Source: Brachyspira pilosicoli P43/6/78 (GTDB lineage Bacteria > Spirochaetota > Brachyspiria > Brachyspirales > Brachyspiraceae). From it: DNA of 64,000 nucleotides. Under the pieces are notes generated by a model. It was not told the origin of the DNA. It made no database searches and saw only the letters and a program-made list of their open reading frames with translations. Where the stretch lies: assembly GCF_000325665.1 (NCBI RefSeq), contig NC_019908.1, positions 2,356,001-2,420,000 on the forward strand, given 5' to 3'. The number at the start of each line of letters is the position of its first letter. Position 1 is the first letter of the stretch. Both the position numbers and the translations under genes were made by a program. Of the stretch, positions 4,925-32,917 are shown piece after piece.

Positions 4925-5389
4925 ATGGAAAATATTAATATAACTAAAATAATGGAGCTTCTTCCGCATAGATATCCTTTTTTACTTGTAGATAAAGTAA
5001 TAAGCATAGAAGAAGGTAAAATACATTCTCTAAAAAATGTTACTTTTAATGAACCTCAATTTACAGGTCATTTTCCAGAAAGTCCTATAATGCCTGGTGT
5101 TTTAATGGTTGAGGCATTGGCACAAACTTCTGGAATATATTGCTATATGAAATTATTAAAACCTGAAGAAATTGGCAATAAATTTATGTTTTTTGCTAAA
5201 ATAGATAATGTTAAGTTTAAAAATCCTGTTATACCAGGAGACGTAATGGATATGTTTGTTACTGTTGAGGCTTTTAACGGAACTTTACTTAAAACACATG
5301 GTGAAGTTAGAGTAGGGGATAGTTTAGCTTGTTCTGCTGATTTAGGATTATTTTTAGTAGATAGAGAAGCTATGAAGATTAATAAATAA
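4925..5389 (+). CDS. fabZ: 3-hydroxyacyl-[acyl-carrier-protein] dehydratase FabZ
   Basis: A 154-residue hot-dog-fold enzyme that dehydrates (3R)-3-hydroxyacyl-ACP to trans-2-enoyl-ACP in fatty acid synthesis. It shows the family start LLPHRYPFLLVD and the active-site stretch GHFPESPIMPGVLMVEALAQ, which holds the catalytic His (about 47) and Glu (about 61). The length is typical. It is followed 25 bases later by lpxA and then lpxB, the classic arrangement in which FabZ and LpxA compete for 3-hydroxyacyl-ACP and so balance phospholipid against lipid A. The ribosome binding site is AAAGG at 4912-4916. Confidence 0.95.
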   Translation: MENINITKIMELLPHRYPFLLVDKVISIEEGKIHSLKNVTFNEPQFTGHFPESPIMPGVLMVEALAQTSGIYCYMKLLKPEEIGNKFMFFAKIDNVKFKNPVIPGDVMDMFVTVEAFNGTLLKTHGEVRVGDSLACSADLGLFLVDREAMKINK

Positions 5390-22565: not shown

Positions 22566-23363
22566 TTAATCTATTCCTAATATCTCAACGCCATTTTTTT
22601 TAATTAAAACAGTATGTTCAAAATGAGCGGCAAAAGAGTAGTCGGCTGTAGATATAGTCCAACCATCATTTTCTATTATATATTTATCAGAGCCTTCAGT
22701 TATCATTAATTCTAATGCCAAAACCATATTCTCTTCTAGTTTTACATCATTATTTGGGTGATAAAAATTATATATATAAGGAGCTTCATGATACTCATAT
22801 CCAACACCATGACCTGTAAGAGATTTTATTATGCTGTATCCATATTCATTTACTTTTTTTTCAACTTCTCTTCCATAGGTGCTTAAAAGTATATTGGGTC
22901 TTAATTTATATATAGCATGTTCTAAAGATTCTTTACAAGCTTTAATTAATTTATATGCTTTTTTGTTTGTTGAACTTAATTGATTGCCTTTAACAACCAT
23001 AGTTCTAGCACAGTCAGCATAGTAGCCGTTATATTTAACTCCTATATCAATGCATATAATATCGCCTTGCACTAATATTTTTTTATTTGTTGGTCTGCCA
23101 TGTGCTATTTCATTTCCTATTGATATGCTTGTAGAAAAACCATATTCAGGCACTTCTAAATTGGCAGGGTATGCCCCTTTAGATTTTATAAATTTCTCAA
23201 CGTCTTTATCTATTTTTGAAGCTCTTGTTCCTGATAGAGAATATTCAAAAGCTAAGTCTATAGCTTCTTGTGCTATTTGAGCTGCTTTTTTAATATTTTC
23301 TATGGCTTTTTCATCTTTGATAGAAGGCTTTACAATATCTGTTGTATTGCTTTTAATAAACAT
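22566..23363 (-). CDS. map: type I methionine aminopeptidase
   Basis: A 265-residue enzyme removing the initiator Met from nascent proteins. The metal ligands are in place: Asp in IICIDIGVKYNG, Asp in YYADCARTM, His in TGHGVGYEYHEAP, Glu in MVLALELMI and Glu in AHFEHTVLI. The length matches bacterial MAP. A 15-residue N-terminal extension precedes the first conserved helix. It is the last gene of a minus-strand run following a small membrane protein (14-base gap) and the two acidic-tail membrane proteins. Confidence 0.94.
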   Translation of the reverse strand: MFIKSNTTDIVKPSIKDEKAIENIKKAAQIAQEAIDLAFEYSLSGTRASKIDKDVEKFIKSKGAYPANLEVPEYGFSTSISIGNEIAHGRPTNKKILVQGDIICIDIGVKYNGYYADCARTMVVKGNQLSSTNKKAYKLIKACKESLEHAIYKLRPNILLSTYGREVEKKVNEYGYSIIKSLTGHGVGYEYHEAPYIYNFYHPNNDVKLEENMVLALELMITEGSDKYIIENDGWTISTADYSFAAHFEHTVLIKKNGVEILGID

Positions 23364-23377
23364 TATTTTTTGCCTTA

Positions 23378-23644
23378 CTATTTTAATGATTTAGGTGTAA
23401 ATATTCTTAGAAGTATAACCAAAATAATAGCACCCAAAATAGCAGACGATAGGTTAATATTAATATAGCTTACTATTTCAGTTAATCTTGGCAAATAATA
23501 TGAACCAAGCAAAGCTCCAATAGTAGCTATTATAAACATCATAACCCAGCCGCCGAATACTTTTATATGCAAAACATTATAAAAAATTAAGCTTATCACT
23601 ATTCCTATTAATATAAAAGCAGCTACTACTATCAAATATTCCAT
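23378..23644 (-). CDS. small three-segment membrane protein
   Basis: An 88-residue hydrophobic protein with three predicted membrane helices (about residues 3-22, 30-50 and 60-80) and a short basic tail (TPKSLK). Gly residues in the middle helices recall GlsB/YeaQ-type proteins, but the similarity is weak and I would not name it. It sits 14 bases before map and 39 bases after the acidic repeat protein, apparently in one transcript. Function unknown. Confidence 0.55.
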   Translation of the reverse strand: MEYLIVVAAFILIGIVISLIFYNVLHIKVFGGWVMMFIIATIGALLGSYYLPRLTEIVSYININLSSAILGAIILVILLRIFTPKSLK

Positions 23645-23683: not shown

Positions 23684-26481
23684 TCAATTTGAAGAAAGCC
23701 CTATAAAGAAAGATTTTAATTGAGCTTCTTCATCTTGTATAGGTATAAATATCATATGAGAAATATTTTCTCTATCTTTTTCATCAAATTTAATTTTTAA
23801 TGATAATGAAGAGAAAGGATCTGACACATATAATGTTTTTCTAGATGATAAAATCTTTTTAAATAAAGCTTCATTTTCATCTATTTCTAATTTGTTTTTA
23901 GTATCTTCTGTAAGGTTTTTAGAATCTGATATTTTGTATATTCCATTTTCATCTTTAGTAAGCATTGCAGAATGTAATACATTAAGTCCGGATTTTTCTT
24001 TTATCCACTCTAGCATTTCATCTAAACTTTTATTTACAAACTTCTCACCTTTAATTGCTTTAAGAATATTTTTCCAATTTGAAGTCATATTATCTTTTAC
24101 TTTTTCTTCTGCATCTTTATAATCTTCAGGCATAGGCGGTCTTTTTTCTTCAGGGTCATATAATTCACTGTCTATTAAATCTTCTGTATCAAACACATCA
24201 TCTTCACTTGCTTTTTTTATTACTTCATTGCTATCATAGTTATGTGATTTATCAAATTCGTTTTTATCATCATCAAATAGAAAATCTTTATTAAGAGCAA
24301 GATTAAATGAATCTAGAGAAGAGAAATAATCATCTTCTTTTTTGCTAATTTCATTATCAATCATAGAGCCATGACTTATCAAAATATCCTCCTCATTATC
24401 AGAAATAATATCATCTATACCTCTTAAAATATTTTTATCTTCATCGTTTTCATCTAATACATTATCTAATGTAGGTACATAATCTAATTCCTTATCTTCT
24501 TCAGATACGGTATTTATATTATTATCTAAATTATCTATATTTGGTATTGAATTATCATCAACCTCTTCTTCTAAATCTTCATCAATATTATCTATTTTAA
24601 TAGTTTCATCATCAATGCTATCTTCTATATCTTCTAAATCTTCAATATTTTCTATATTCAAATGTTCATCATTATCAACTTCATCAAGATTGTCAACTTT
24701 AATAGTTTCATCATCAATGCTGTCTTCTATTTTTTCTAAGTCTTCGATATTTTCTATATTCAAATGCTCATCGTTATCAACTTCATCAATATTGTCAACT
24801 TTAATAGCTTCATCATCAATGCTGTCTTCTATTTTTTCTAAGTCTTCGATGTTTTCTATATTCAAATGCTCATCATTATCAACTTCATCAACATTGTCAA
24901 CTTTAATAGCTTCATCATCAATGCTCTCTTCTATATCTTCTAAGTCTTCAATGTTTTCTATATTTAAATGCTCATCATTATCAACTTCATCAAGATTGTC
25001 AACTTTAATAGCTTCATCATCAATGCTGTCTTCTATTTTTTCTAAGTCTTCAATATTTTCTATATTCAAATGCTCATCATTATCAACTTCATCAAGATTG
25101 TCAACTTTAATAGCTTCATCATCAATGCTGTCTTCTATTTTTTCTAAGTCTTCGATATTTTCTATATTCAAATGCTCATCGTTATCAACTTCATCAATAT
25201 TGTCAACTTTAATAGCTTCATCATCAATGCTGTCTTTCTATTTTTTCTAAGTCTTCAATGTTTTCTATATTCAAATGCTCATCGTTTATCAACTTCATCA
25301 ACATTGTCAACTTTAATAGCTTCATCATTAATGCTGTCTTCTATATCTTCTAAGTCTTCAATAGCTAATAAATCTTCTTTGCTTATATTATCTACAGCTT
25401 TTTCTATATCATCTAAATTAGGCAGCTCTAATTTGCTTTTTTTATCAATGTGTTTTTTATTTTTTGATTCTATATTATTTAAATATTCTATATCTTCATT
25501 TAATGTATTTAAATCATAATTAAAATCATCTAAATTATTATCATCATCAAAATTATTGTATTCATCATCTTCTAGAATATTATCATCTGATGAATATATA
25601 CTATCGTCTTCTATATCTGAAGCATTTTCTGTTTGCAATTTTTTTCTTTCATATAAAGCACTAGATATTAAAAATATTAATGAAGAACAAAGTATAATAA
25701 GTAAAATATATTTTAAATATCTTTGTATTATAGGCACATCAAGCTCTAGTATTCCTACATTAAAATTATATATATCTTTAACATTGCTTGAATGTAATAT
25801 ATATGAATAAGCTCCTATATTTATTACTCCAGGATTATTCATATATTGATATAATGTATCTCTTGAAATACTATTAATATTTATAGAAGGATTATAATAT
25901 ATTACACCATTTGGTATAAGCAAGAAGTTTAAATTGTATGAAGTATTTTCAAAAATCTTTTTAAATACACTTGCTACAATATATCCAACTTCTAATCCTT
26001 TTTCATTTTTAATTGGTTTAATAAAATAAACACCATCAAAATCTTGGTCAAAGAAAGCTTTTTTATCATTTATTTTTAATGCATTAAGGTTTATGCTTTT
26101 TCTATTATCCGGAGAAGAAAATACAGCACGTCCATCAGAAAAATAAAGCCCAACAGTATCAAAAGCATAATTACCGCTTCTAAAAATAGATATAATTCTA
26201 TTTTTTTCATCTTCATTCATTCCATTTAATACAACATTTTGAAGCAATGAAGGAAAATTATAACTTTCTATTATTTTATCTAATCTATTATCATAATCAT
26301 TTATAAGGCTTAATATATTATTTTGGCATATTAGAGATGTTCTATCAAGCTTTTTAGTATCTATATCAAAAGCATCTTTTTTTAATCCAAATACAAAAGT
26401 AATAAATAGAGCAATAATTATAGCATTAAGCAAAATAGCTATATATACAAAAATAGAAATATTATTATGTCTATCAAACAT
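23684..26481 (-). pseudogene. membrane sensor-like protein with acidic 34-residue tandem repeats (two one-base frameshifts)
   Basis: A composite of about 931 residues. From 26481: membrane helix (residues 12-32), an extracytoplasmic Cache-like domain (about 33-250; VGLYFSDGRAVFSSPD, GVYFIKPIKNEKGLEVGYIV), a second helix (about 255-275), then an Asp/Glu/Asn-rich cytoplasmic region. Next comes the tandem repeat, an acidic linker and a C-terminal GAF-like domain of about 150 residues (SNWKNILKAIKGEKF to the end). Two extra T, near 25234-25236 and 25285-25287, put one repeat unit out of frame. Comparison with the other copies makes both obvious. Removing both restores a single frame. The 15-base gap to the gene at 26497 and the shared layout suggest a functional pair. 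Role unknown. Confidence 0.65.
24570..25365 (-). repeat. 102-bp tandem repeat (about 8 units) encoding an acidic 34-residue motif
   Basis: The hexamer CAAATG, or a one-base variant, recurs at 24659, 24761, 24863, 24965, 25067, 25169 and 25272. The period is exactly 102 bases, except for the last interval of 103. Each unit encodes a motif beginning NIENIEDLEKIEDSIDDEAI followed by KVDNLDEVDNDEHL. Interior copies differ by only a few bases, which indicates recent duplication or gene conversion. The outermost units are degenerate. The array is in frame apart from the two extra T described for the host gene. Confidence 0.9.
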
Positions 26482-26496
26482 AAAAAACCACCTATA

Positions 26497-28494
26497 TTAT
26501 TTTTTAGTTATACTTTTTCTAGCATCTTCTTCTGCTTTACTTATTATTGAAGATAACATCTTATCAAAAGCAGCAAATACATCTTCTGTTCTTTTAGTAT
26601 CTATATTTTTTATTTTTTCCTCATCATTATTTTCTATACCATATGAATTATATATATCCATATTAATATTTTCTTTTACTTCTTCTTCCTCTTCTATTTT
26701 TTCTTGTACGTTTTCTATTTCTTCTACATCATCATTTATCTTTTCTATTTCTTCTTTTGAATTAAAAATATTTTCGTTACTATATTCATTATATGATAAT
26801 TGTAAATCGCTTTTAATAATTTTTCTATCTCTTATATCTTCATTATTAAAATATTCATTATTATTAGAATATTCAGCATTTAAAGAATAGTATTCATCAT
26901 TATTTTCTGATTCTTGATAATTTTGATATTCTTCTTCAGATTCTTGAACTAAAGCTTTTATTTCTTCATCATTATTATTATATATATCATCTTCATCATT
27001 TTGAACACTTTCTATTTTGTACTCATCATTATTATATTCGCTATTATATTCATCATACTCTTCTGTTTTGTAAGTTTCTTCTAATGTACTGTTATCATTA
27101 TATTCTAATATTTCATCATCTATTTTTTCTTCTTCTACAAATTCTATTGAATCTTCATTTTTGTCATTTTCTAATTCTTTATCAACTTCATTTTCTATAT
27201 AGCTTAATGAATAAATATTATTGAGATTATCTTCATTTTCTATACTTATGTCTTTTATCTCTTCTGTTATTTTTTCTTCTGCATTTATCTCTTCATTATT
27301 ATCTTTTGCAGGATCATAGTTATTAAACTTTATCATGCTTACAATATTTGATATGTCTTTTGCAATATTGAATTTATTTTCTTCTTCTTTTTTATTATTA
27401 TCAAAATATTTTTCTGGTATTTTATAATGAAGTTTTTCTATTATAGGAGGCATATCATCTATTGCAGTAGATTTAGGTATATCTGCTTTTACTAAGCTCT
27501 CATCTATAAATAATTCATTTTCTCCTTTAACACTCTCCAAAAAATCTCTATGAGTTTTAATTTGCATCAAGTATTTAAAGAAGTTAATTATTCCAGTTAA
27601 TATTAATTGGAATAATAATATAAGTAAAGCAGTAACAGCTAATACTATTAATTCAAAATAATTAGGATACTCTTTTCCTATCATAGATACAGATAGTGAA
27701 TCATTAACTATAAAACTAGGTTGTTTTTTATAATAAGCAAATCTATTAATAACGCTAGATACTTTTTCTATAGATTTTTCTCCTATAGACTCTCTTACAT
27801 TATAAACTAAATCTCTAGAATCGCTTATATAAAGCCTTTTGTCTGCCACTTGATAATACATAGCTATATCAGAAACATAAGAATAATCATTTCTTGTAGT
27901 AACAATAATTTCACCATATTTATTTTTAATATATTCCATTATATAGAATGCATTTTCATTTTCAGCATTTAATACCAAAGAGCCTTTATTTTTTACTTCT
28001 TTTAACAGATTATCCTGTAATTCTATAGGCCAAGATTTATGATTAGCCGAATACAAGTTTAGTCTCATTTTGCCGTCTATAGAAAAGACTGTCATGCTTC
28101 TTAAATAAGGGTTTTCCAAAGTCATTTTATAATAATCATTTTTATATTTTTCTAATTCTGTTTTAGAGTAATTTTTGTATGGGTTATAATCTTTTAATAT
28201 ATCAGCTGTTTGATACATGCTATAACCTACATAATCTGATATAGATTGAGTTATTAAGTTTACCTGGTATTCTGAAACTGTATTTCTTTTTATTTTTAAG
28301 TTAGTAGCAAATTTATCCATCATTTCCATCATCATATCTAGATAATCATTAATTAATACAGATACTTTGCTGTTTTGAGGCAATACAGTGTTGCTTGCCA
28401 CTCTTGCAAACATAGCAACTATAAAAATCATTAAAAATGATATCATCAGACTAAGAAGTGTTTTAATAATTTTTTGCTTTTTATCATTATTCAT
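26497..28494 (-). CDS. membrane sensor-like protein with long acidic cytoplasmic tail
   Basis: A 665-residue protein. One membrane helix (residues 13-34), an extracytoplasmic domain (about 35-280, with SMTVFSIDGKMRLNLYS typical of Cache-like sensor domains), a second helix (about 283-310), then about 350 residues of cytoplasmic sequence dominated by Glu, Asp, Asn and Tyr. The tail ends in a basic helix (ISKAEEDARKSITKK). No kinase, HAMP or methyl-accepting motif is visible. The adjacent gene at 23684-26481 has the same architecture, so these look like divergent duplicates. It heads a run ending in map. Function unknown; a scaffold or sensor is possible. Confidence 0.65.
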   Translation of the reverse strand: MNNDKKQKIIKTLLSLMISFLMIFIVAMFARVASNTVLPQNSKVSVLINDYLDMMMEMMDKFATNLKIKRNTVSEYQVNLITQSISDYVGYSMYQTADILKDYNPYKNYSKTELEKYKNDYYKMTLENPYLRSMTVFSIDGKMRLNLYSANHKSWPIELQDNLLKEVKNKGSLVLNAENENAFYIMEYIKNKYGEIIVTTRNDYSYVSDIAMYYQVADKRLYISDSRDLVYNVRESIGEKSIEKVSSVINRFAYYKKQPSFIVNDSLSVSMIGKEYPNYFELIVLAVTALLILLFQLILTGIINFFKYLMQIKTHRDFLESVKGENELFIDESLVKADIPKSTAIDDMPPIIEKLHYKIPEKYFDNNKKEEENKFNIAKDISNIVSMIKFNNYDPAKDNNEEINAEEKITEEIKDISIENEDNLNNIYSLSYIENEVDKELENDKNEDSIEFVEEEKIDDEILEYNDNSTLEETYKTEEYDEYNSEYNNDEYKIESVQNDEDDIYNNNDEEIKALVQESEEEYQNYQESENNDEYYSLNAEYSNNNEYFNNEDIRDRKIIKSDLQLSYNEYSNENIFNSKEEIEKINDDVEEIENVQEKIEEEEEVKENINMDIYNSYGIENNDEEKIKNIDTKRTEDVFAAFDKMLSSIISKAEEDARKSITKK

Positions 28495-31040: not shown

Positions 31041-31943
31041 ATGTATAAAATTAATGGTGTTCTATATAAACAAAATTGTTCATTAAAAAAATATAATACT
31101 TTTAGAGTAAATGCTAAGGCTCTTCATTTTTATATGCCTGAAACTATTAATGGCTTTATAGATTTAATTAAATATTTAAATGATGCTGATAAAAGATATA
31201 TTATTTTAGGCGGCGGGAGCAATGTACTTTTTTTGGATAAGGTAATAGAAGTTCCTATAATACATACAGGATTTTTTACAAGAATAGAGCAGACTAGCAA
31301 TAATATTTTAGCTTATTCTGGGGCTAATGTTATAGATGTTGTAAAGTACGCTTATAGAAATAGTTTTACAGGTTTAGAGTTTTTATATGGGCTACCTGGA
31401 AGTATTGGGGGAGCGGCGTACATGAATGCCCGCTGTTATGAACATTCTATATCAGAGTTTGTAGATAGTGTTGGAATTATAGATGACAATATTGAATATA
31501 TGCATATAAAGGCAGATGAATGTAATTATGCTTATAAAAAAAGTATATTCCAAGATAAGAAATATATTATAATAGATGTGAGGCTAAAATTAAATAAGGG
31601 CTTAAAAAAAATAATAAAAAAAGATATGAACAAATATATAAGAGACAGAAAAAATAAAAATCAATATAAATATCCATCAGCAGGAAGCACTTTTTTGAAT
31701 GATTATGAAACTAATATGATAGCGGGTAAGGTAATAGATTCACTTAATATGAGAAACACAAGGGTAGGGGGTGCTATGGTTTCACCTTATCATGCTAATT
31801 TTATTGTTAATTATAATAATGCTACAGGAAGAGATATTTTTGAACTAATGAAAAAGGTGAGAGAAGAAGTTTATAATAAAATAGGTATAAAGTTAAATGC
31901 TGAAGTGCGTATTATAGGAAATGATGAAAATGAAGTTTTTTGA
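31041..31943 (+). CDS. murB: UDP-N-acetylenolpyruvoylglucosamine reductase MurB
   Basis: A 300-residue flavoenzyme making UDP-MurNAc from UDP-GlcNAc-enolpyruvate with NADPH, an essential peptidoglycan step. The FAD-binding stretch ILGGGSNVLF is near residue 55, and GLPGSIGGAAYMNARCYE is near residue 120. The proton-donating Ser lies in YPSAGSTF near residue 213, and the C-terminal Glu is in KLNAEVRIIG. Size and absence of an extra loop fit type II MurB. The usual active-site Arg of Y-R-x-S is a Lys here (YAYKKSIF). AGGA precedes the ATG. Its 3' end overlaps the radical SAM gene by about 20 bases. Confidence 0.93.
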   Translation: MYKINGVLYKQNCSLKKYNTFRVNAKALHFYMPETINGFIDLIKYLNDADKRYIILGGGSNVLFLDKVIEVPIIHTGFFTRIEQTSNNILAYSGANVIDVVKYAYRNSFTGLEFLYGLPGSIGGAAYMNARCYEHSISEFVDSVGIIDDNIEYMHIKADECNYAYKKSIFQDKKYIIIDVRLKLNKGLKKIIKKDMNKYIRDRKNKNQYKYPSAGSTFLNDYETNMIAGKVIDSLNMRNTRVGGAMVSPYHANFIVNYNNATGRDIFELMKKVREEVYNKIGIKLNAEVRIIGNDENEVF

Positions 31944-32917
31944 TAAAAATTTTAATAATTATAATGAAAAGCATTTATATTATATTGACAGTGCTATAGA
32001 AAAAGCCAAAATACTTTATGACAGCTGTATATGCTGCGGACATTTATGCAAAACAGATAGAAATAATAACAAAATAGGAAGATGTAAGATTTTTGAAGAC
32101 ACTAATCATATAAAAGTAGCTTCTCATACTTTGCATTTTGGCGAAGAGCCTATGCTTGTTGGAAATAATGGAAGCGGAACTGTATTTTTTTCTAATTGCA
32201 ATTTATCTTGCGTGTTTTTGTCAGAATCATCAAATAAGCTCCGAAGGTATAGGGGAGATTATAGATTTAGATAAATTAGCTTCTTATTTTTTAGATTTAG
32301 AGAGAGAGGGAGCTAATAATATTAATCTTGTAAGTGCAACGCATGTGATTTACTCTGTATTAAAGGCTTTAAAAATTGCATTACTAAATGGCTTAAACTT
32401 GCCTATAGTTTATAATACAAATGGTTATGACACCAATGAATTATTAGATTGCTTAAATGGAATAATTGATATTTATTTGCCTGATTTAAAATATTTTAAT
32501 AATGAAAAAGCTATAAAATATTCCAGAGCAGAGAATTATTTTGATGTTGCAATTAATGCTATAACTACAATGAAAAATCAGGTTGGAGATTTAATTATAG
32601 ATGAAAATGATATTGCAAAAAGCGGCATAATAATAAGGCATTTAGTTTTGCCAAACAACGAATCTGATTCTTATGATATATTAATAGAGCTAAAAGAGAG
32701 GGGTTTTTTAAATAGTTATATTTCTTTAATGTCGCAGTATAGTCCTGAGTTTATGGCAAAAGATTATGACAATATTAATAGAAAACTATATGTTAAAGAA
32801 TATAATGAAGTATTAAACTTTGCATTAGATTTAGGTTTTGAGAATATATTAGGTCAAGAGATGGAAAGCAGTGAGAATTATTTACCAGATTTTAGAAAAG
32901 ATAAGCCGTTTGAATAA
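31921..32917 (+). pseudogene. PflX-type radical SAM protein (COG1313), frameshifted in the SAM motif
   Basis: Two frames combine into one protein of about 331 residues. The first (to about 32214) gives CICCGHLCKTDRNNNKIGRC and FFSNCNLSCVF. The second continues CQNHQISSEGIGEI and the rest of the barrel, ending QEMESSENYLPDF. Joining them at the T5 run (32215-32219; four T expected) restores the radical SAM motif C-x3-C-x2-C as CNLSCVFCQNHQ. The break falls exactly inside that motif, so as read the protein would lack a [4Fe-4S] site. The family is related to pyruvate-formate-lyase activases but has no firm function. Its start overlaps the murB end; ATG 31930 is an alternative start. Confidence 0.8.

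Follow-up and report, generated by a model that had tools for sequence, protein, structure and literature searches.

The closest described systems are transmembrane (TM) receptors with a dCache domain, which are histidine kinases like KinD or chemoreceptors like Tlp3, sensors with a GAF domain like those of Lcd1 and PtsP, and receptors of the LapD/DvhD type. Here we analyzed two adjacent genes, called P1 and P2, within a stretch of 64,000 nucleotides from the intestinal spirochaete Brachyspira pilosicoli P43/6/78 (NC_019908.1, positions 2,356,001 to 2,420,000; "the window" in the following, numbered from its first letter). Like the dCache receptors, P1 and P2 carry a predicted dCache fold between two TM helices, but they possess no recognisable kinase, methyl-accepting, GGDEF or other output and continue into a disordered tail instead. 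P2 shares with the GAF sensors a confidently predicted GAF fold at its C-terminus, which however is terminal on a long disordered tether with no enzyme after it and shows no significant match at the sequence level. In its two TM helices and the fold of its extracytoplasmic domain P2 is similar to DvhD, whereas P1 and P2 are without GGDEF or EAL domains and represent two adjacent receptor genes and not one. The pair is real, conserved and apparently undescribed, and it combines domains of known types in an uncommon way, with no recognisable output. In the titles and abstract openings covered by our literature search we recognised no description of it, and a term search of PMC4955376 gave no "GAF", "Cache" or "BPP43".

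P1 was modelled with AlphaFold for residues 1–330 (21 sequences, mean pLDDT 68.7), which gave a helix at residues 3–36, a sensor core and a second helix at residues 279–309. The core was matched by VIA-align to 8w7p_B (Z 11.7, root mean square deviation (rmsd) 3.8, 183 aligned residues) and to KinD (4jgq_B; Z 11.1, rmsd 4.5, 177 aligned residues), and Foldseek agrees with a dCache fold (best E 2.2e-4). A profile search of P1 against the PDB sequences led to no significant match, and the distant P1 orthologue in L114 matches the Pfam family dCache_1 with an E-value of 8.4e-6, which is under the gathering score. The second helix is followed by a tail of about 356 residues (29% D/E, 13% N), and open reading frame (ORF) and model together confirm the order of helix, extracytoplasmic domain, helix and long acidic tail given for P1 in the original prediction, which had been made from the letters of the window only. 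The RxWY-type motif is the ligand motif of the dCache_1AA amino-acid sensors; a motif scan showed it to be absent from 23 P1 and 20 P2 sequences.

The first part of P2 shows hydrophobic segments at residues 10–28 and 251–269. The reading frame of P2 is broken in the window, as described below, and the protein was modelled via the full-length orthologue from L077 (611 amino acids (aa); AlphaFold, 22 sequences, mean pLDDT 66.1). VIA-align matched its sensor domain to 9rc2 of DvhD (Z 13.6, rmsd 3.5, 202 residues) and to 8w7p_B (Z 13.5). The following linker (approximately residues 293–474) has a pLDDT mostly below 50 and is therefore disordered, and residues 477–609 form a GAF domain with a block pLDDT of about 88–95 over most of its length. 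This domain is matched in Foldseek by 5w10 (7.3e-5) and 3ci6 (9.3e-5) as well as by 3trc and 3hcy. A profile search of the GAF region against GAF chains of the PDB did not reach significance (E 0.15 and 0.62), and the C-terminal part of P2 in the window has no Pfam match and so no curated GAF model. The Cache-like nature of both extracytoplasmic domains and the GAF-like end of one of the proteins, as originally proposed, are upheld as predicted folds, the former as dCache in the P1 model and in the L077 orthologue of P2. Kinase, cyclase and methyl-accepting domains, already noted as absent from both proteins in the original prediction, were also not found here in P1 or P2 (Pfam for the window proteins, NCBIfam for P1 and a P2 orthologue), GGDEF and EAL gave no Pfam match in the window proteins, and the PADLOC anti-phage models returned 0 families for four queries. 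The domains resemble known sensor folds and do not point to an unrelated family; no family of Pfam or NCBIfam names P1 or P2 of the window.

In order to follow the distribution of the pair, 296 spirochaete genomes were scanned with a P1 profile and a P2 GAF profile. P1 was found in 35 of them, including all 29 genomes searched of family f1, and each of these 35 is among the 62 genomes with a match to the GAF profile, a conservation of the pair beyond chance. Both genes lie next to each other in 34 of the 35 genomes (29 from f1, two from f2, one from f27 and two from f22). In the remaining genome, from f12, P1 is located at a contig end and followed by the beginning of a TM protein, which the end of the contig interrupts; the GAF part lies at the end of another contig. 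Outside f1 and f2 the flanking genes change and the P1–P2 pair persists, which identifies it as the constant unit of the locus. The genome of the window (2,555,556 bases, one contig) has one copy of each gene. A scan of all bacteria and archaea with one genome per species and two peptide patterns, whose reach is limited by the pattern method, yielded 20 relatives, and the titles of their contigs all carry Brachyspira or Spirochaetes/Spirochaetia. The idea of a spirochaete-specific pair therefore holds for P1, which our scans detected in no phylum other than Spirochaetota, and has to be relaxed for the GAF half, which reaches more genomes (62/296). This last number overstates the P2-like proteins, since four of 22 inspected GAF matches from outside f1 and f2 (L055, L116, L125 and L128) do not show the plan of TM helix, sensor and TM helix by reading; the other 18 follow the order TM helix, sensor domain, TM helix, linker and GAF, two being truncated at contig ends. 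The same order is found in unpaired P2-like proteins (for example L050, L113 and L119), which differ from the pair in that no P1 was found in their genomes. Sensor domains from f5 align with those of the Brachyspiraceae P2 (hhalign probability 86.7, E 4.4e-6). From eight distant P2-like proteins compared with Pfam, four had no match and four had weak matches to unrelated families.

Some of these distant loci have neighbours of their own. In the f5 genomes L050, L053, L111 and L113 a dissimilar two-TM gene is located upstream of the P2-like gene, and its product carries a motif resembling DIIxEIDxEL in the tail and finishes with a sequence similar to LExDGIxI. It was rejected as a P1, as the profile comparison gave a probability of 1.6 and only a short tail segment is alike. 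In three of these genomes (L050, L111 and L113) the P2-like gene is followed by genes that presumably encode RNase Y and YmdB, which they resemble, and in L118 and L126 the P2-like gene adjoins what we take to be a pyruvate:ferredoxin oxidoreductase gene.

The tails of both proteins diverge strongly and contain conserved islands. Identity to the window P1 in blocks of 20 residues is 0.12–0.41 at positions 361–640 and 0.82 at 641–660 (23 orthologues). The C-terminal motif of P1, VFxxFDxxL, is present in f1, f2 and f27 and absent from f22 and the available f12 sequence; the pattern misses L047, which has a visible variant, and L040, where P1 is in two pieces. For P2 (reference G014, 20 orthologues) the block identity is 0.13–0.44 at residues 281–600 and rises to 0.68 and 0.67 in the YFSS island (601–640) and to 0.64 and 0.51 in the PDDYY island (661–700). 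The YFSS-type motif occurs in 24 of 41 P2-like proteins, namely 21/21 in f1, 2/2 in f2, 1/1 in f27 and 0/17 in the others, and more distant P2-like proteins have IPDExY segments related to the PxxPDDYY type. The P1 motif and the YFSS motif thus share their lineages, both being present in f1, f2 and f27 and missing from f22 and the available f12 sequence.

As P1 and P2 are without a recognisable enzyme, we infer signalling by recruitment, and the explanation that we favour, at slightly less than an even chance, is that they are the two halves of one spirochaete membrane receptor acting through a recruited cytoplasmic partner and not via an enzyme. Both halves would assemble together, each with a dCache domain of the ligand-binding type predicted outside the membrane between its two helices. 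P1 would bring the strongly conserved sensor, and P2 the long disordered cytoplasmic tether capped by the GAF domain. Alignments from the same 10 genomes contain 48 invariant columns for P1 vs 6 for P2, and as P1 is far more constrained, its sequence fits a main sensor and that of P2 an adaptor half. The C-terminal motif of P1 and the YFSS and PDDYY islands of P2 could then dock the cytoplasmic partner, as could amplified IPxLDxV-type motifs in several species, and the ligand state of a dCache domain or of the GAF domain would alter this docking. Tandem repeats would extend the tether and, in several species, also multiply the docking motif. The sensing and scaffolding roles that had been suggested for the pair are in our analysis, too, inferences from its architecture.

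Several observations weigh against this model. Both AlphaFold models are modest overall, as their mean pLDDT values show, and P2-like proteins occur without a detected P1 (62 genomes with a GAF match vs 35), so that P2 may work alone or with a different partner. Five lineages underlie the co-occurrence of the P1 and P2 motifs. The IPxLDxV-type motif was observed 105 times vs 6.8 in shuffled tails (sum, 40 sequences), a count that is inflated by tandem duplication and belongs to a motif picked post hoc, and it is missing in 4/18 intact f1 tails. Both f22 genomes encode proteins whose tails, in P1 as well as in P2, look basic or proline-rich by reading, and the giant acidic tails of the original prediction are consequently a feature of the Brachyspiraceae which is not kept in f22; going by the sequences, acidity is a lineage trait and not a defining feature. 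The f22 pairs are located at 5104–8550 in L121 and at 1392–4395 in L129, both in genomes without MCPsignal matches.

A role as chemoreceptor accessory was also considered and is weakened by the MCPsignal domain being absent from 5/25 selected carriers, among them both f22 genomes with P1–P2, and for the same reason the module is independent of chemoreceptors.

Signalling could also run in the opposite direction, with the GAF domain binding a small molecule such as a cyclic nucleotide, the change being transmitted outward across the membrane, and the dCache domains then binding or releasing a periplasmic protein, as in receptors of the LapD type. In VIA-align the P2 sensor is closest to the periplasmic domain of DvhD, which reportedly is part of a Lap-like system containing a receptor for c-di-GMP (PMC13090378), and the GAF model matches the cAMP-bound GAF domain of Lcd1 (5w10). 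However, the DvhD match is unspecific, with many dCache chains within about 1–2 Z units, the GAF profile matches in the PDB are those without significance given above, and the Pfam search of the window proteins revealed neither GGDEF nor EAL, and we regard such an inside-out receptor as unlikely.

Rather unlikely in our view is a structural anchor, in which the pair would tether the envelope to the cytoplasm for cell shape, the pole or the flagellar region, and the dCache domains would bind a protein without any sensing of small molecules. The occurrence in all f1 genomes searched resembles housekeeping more than niche sensing, and the tails are long and disordered with islands of a binding type, but the dCache fold is typically a ligand sensor and FliG_C does not discriminate the carriers. 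It was detected in 25/25 chosen carriers, in 60/62 genomes with a GAF match, in 218/234 of the others and in 278/296 overall, and being nearly ubiquitous with or without a GAF match it is uninformative on a flagellar link.

The original prediction treated the second gene as one reading frame and mentioned neither a repeat array nor a break. In the window P2 consists of two ORFs with the break inside a tandem array (Table 1): one frame extends without a stop from 26481 to 25282, the other only from 25237 down to 23687, and the anchor spacings along the array are 104, 102, 102, 102, 102, 102 and 102. The TTG start of the second part lies inside the array and is probably not a genuine start. Among the 21 P2 genes with both ends on one contig, 18 are single open frames of 596 to 1377 aa, the exceptions being the window, G003 (B. 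hampsonii 30446) and G015 (B. alvinipulli). Of these 21 genes, 16 contain tandem arrays, with repeat units varying by species, and the array length differs even among close relatives. The period of the top-scoring array is divisible by 3 in 16/16 cases, so that gain or loss of units keeps the frame.

Elsewhere in the window, a gene at 31921–32917, which we take to be of the radical-SAM type (PflA-like) from its cysteine motif, is also broken into two ORFs, which overlap. In relatives the matching sequences are part of open frames of 310–348 aa, and this split is probably another sequencing frameshift. The genome of B. pilosicoli P43/6/78T was obtained by 454 sequencing with a potential frameshift disrupting 100 genes (PMC3587939). 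Together with the 18 intact orthologues and the likewise split radical-SAM-type gene this provides circumstantial evidence that the P2 split is probably a sequencing artefact of this genome sequence rather than biology. Programmed frameshifting was set aside, as it needs two nearby shifts and 18/21 orthologues have a single open frame. Phase variation, in which slippage in the P2 tail would turn off the GAF half and the split in the window would be a biological OFF state, could account for the loss of the frame within the tail in three of the 21 genes and for the variable array length in close relatives, but it is quite improbable given array periods that preserve the frame, a 454 genome with many potentially frameshifted genes and the second split gene nearby. 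Finally, P1 and P2 could be remnants of former chemoreceptors or kinases which, after loss of the output, only serve as decoys or buffer a ligand. This would agree with dCache domains without recognisable output but is very improbable, since conservation of the P1 sensor, both tail islands and the GAF domain across several families is unexpected for decaying proteins. A further frame break was observed in P1 of L040 (G024:C8:1680491–1682543), where P1 lies in two pieces with the break in a low-complexity tail, and an antisense ORF of 211 aa on the plus strand (24615–25250) mirrors the repeat array and is probably not a gene.

Table 1: Features of the P1–P2 locus (positions within the window).
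Feature	Positions	Strand	Description	Basis
P1	26497..28494	minus	665-aa membrane protein with a dCache sensor domain between two TM helices, a divergent tail and a conserved C-terminal motif	ORF, AlphaFold, fold matches
P1 extracytoplasmic domain	27661..28368	minus	dCache-like, approx. residues 43–278	VIA-align
P1 C-terminal island	26500..26589	minus	TEDVFAAFDKMLSSI..., residues 636–665	block identity, motif list
P2 first part	25279..26481	minus	400 aa with a dCache-like domain between two TM helices and the first stretch of the acidic tail	ORF
P2 second part	23684..25171	minus	495 aa: repeats, remaining acidic tail, C-terminal GAF	ORF
P2 frame-loss stretch	25237..25282	minus	net two bases vs neighbouring repeat units	
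Tandem array	24577..25363	minus	codes for the acidic repeat of P2; 102-bp (base pair) unit x 7.7, 94% match	TRF
P2 YFSS motif	24278..24337	minus	EDDYFSSLDSFNLALNKDFL (YFSSxxAF...FL), in the tail	motif scan
P2 PDDYY island	24116..24202	minus	DDVFDTEDLIDSELYDPEEKRPPMPEDYK (PxxPDDYY-type), in the tail	block identity
P2 C-terminal GAF	23687..24091	minus	last ~135 residues	fold of L077 model
Third cluster gene	23378..23644	minus	88-aa membrane protein	ORF, locus comparison
map (fourth cluster gene)	22566..23363	minus	methionine aminopeptidase	Pfam Peptidase_M24, E 4e-42

The surroundings of the pair agree with what had been read from the letters, as P1 is separated from the start of P2 at 26481 by 15 bases and the small membrane protein and map follow on the same strand. 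Each of these two neighbours is kept in 21 of the 22 loci with P1 and both P2 ends, the exceptions being L047 for the membrane gene and L043 for map. The 88-aa protein has no Pfam match above threshold, and its glycine-rich pattern is reminiscent of GlsB/YeaQ-type proteins. An Rfam scan detected one tRNA in the window and no match at the P1–P2 locus.

Annotation based on this genome sequence would miss the full-length P2, given the split gene. The last 30 residues of P1 and the YFSS and PDDYY segments of P2 represent baits for the identification of a partner, and the natural variation in repeat number offers a length series for the tether idea. It is conceivable, if rather doubtful, that the pair represents obligately paired dCache receptors without enzymatic output, with multivalent recruitment by motifs, disordered tails expanded by repeats and the GAF domain as a second, cytoplasmic input. 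If the favoured recruitment model is true, P1 and P2 would form a receptor that is core to a spirochaete genus with animal pathogens among its members and is unnamed by the family models used, and membrane receptors would signal via disordered, motif-bearing tails and not via a kinase or methyl-accepting domain.

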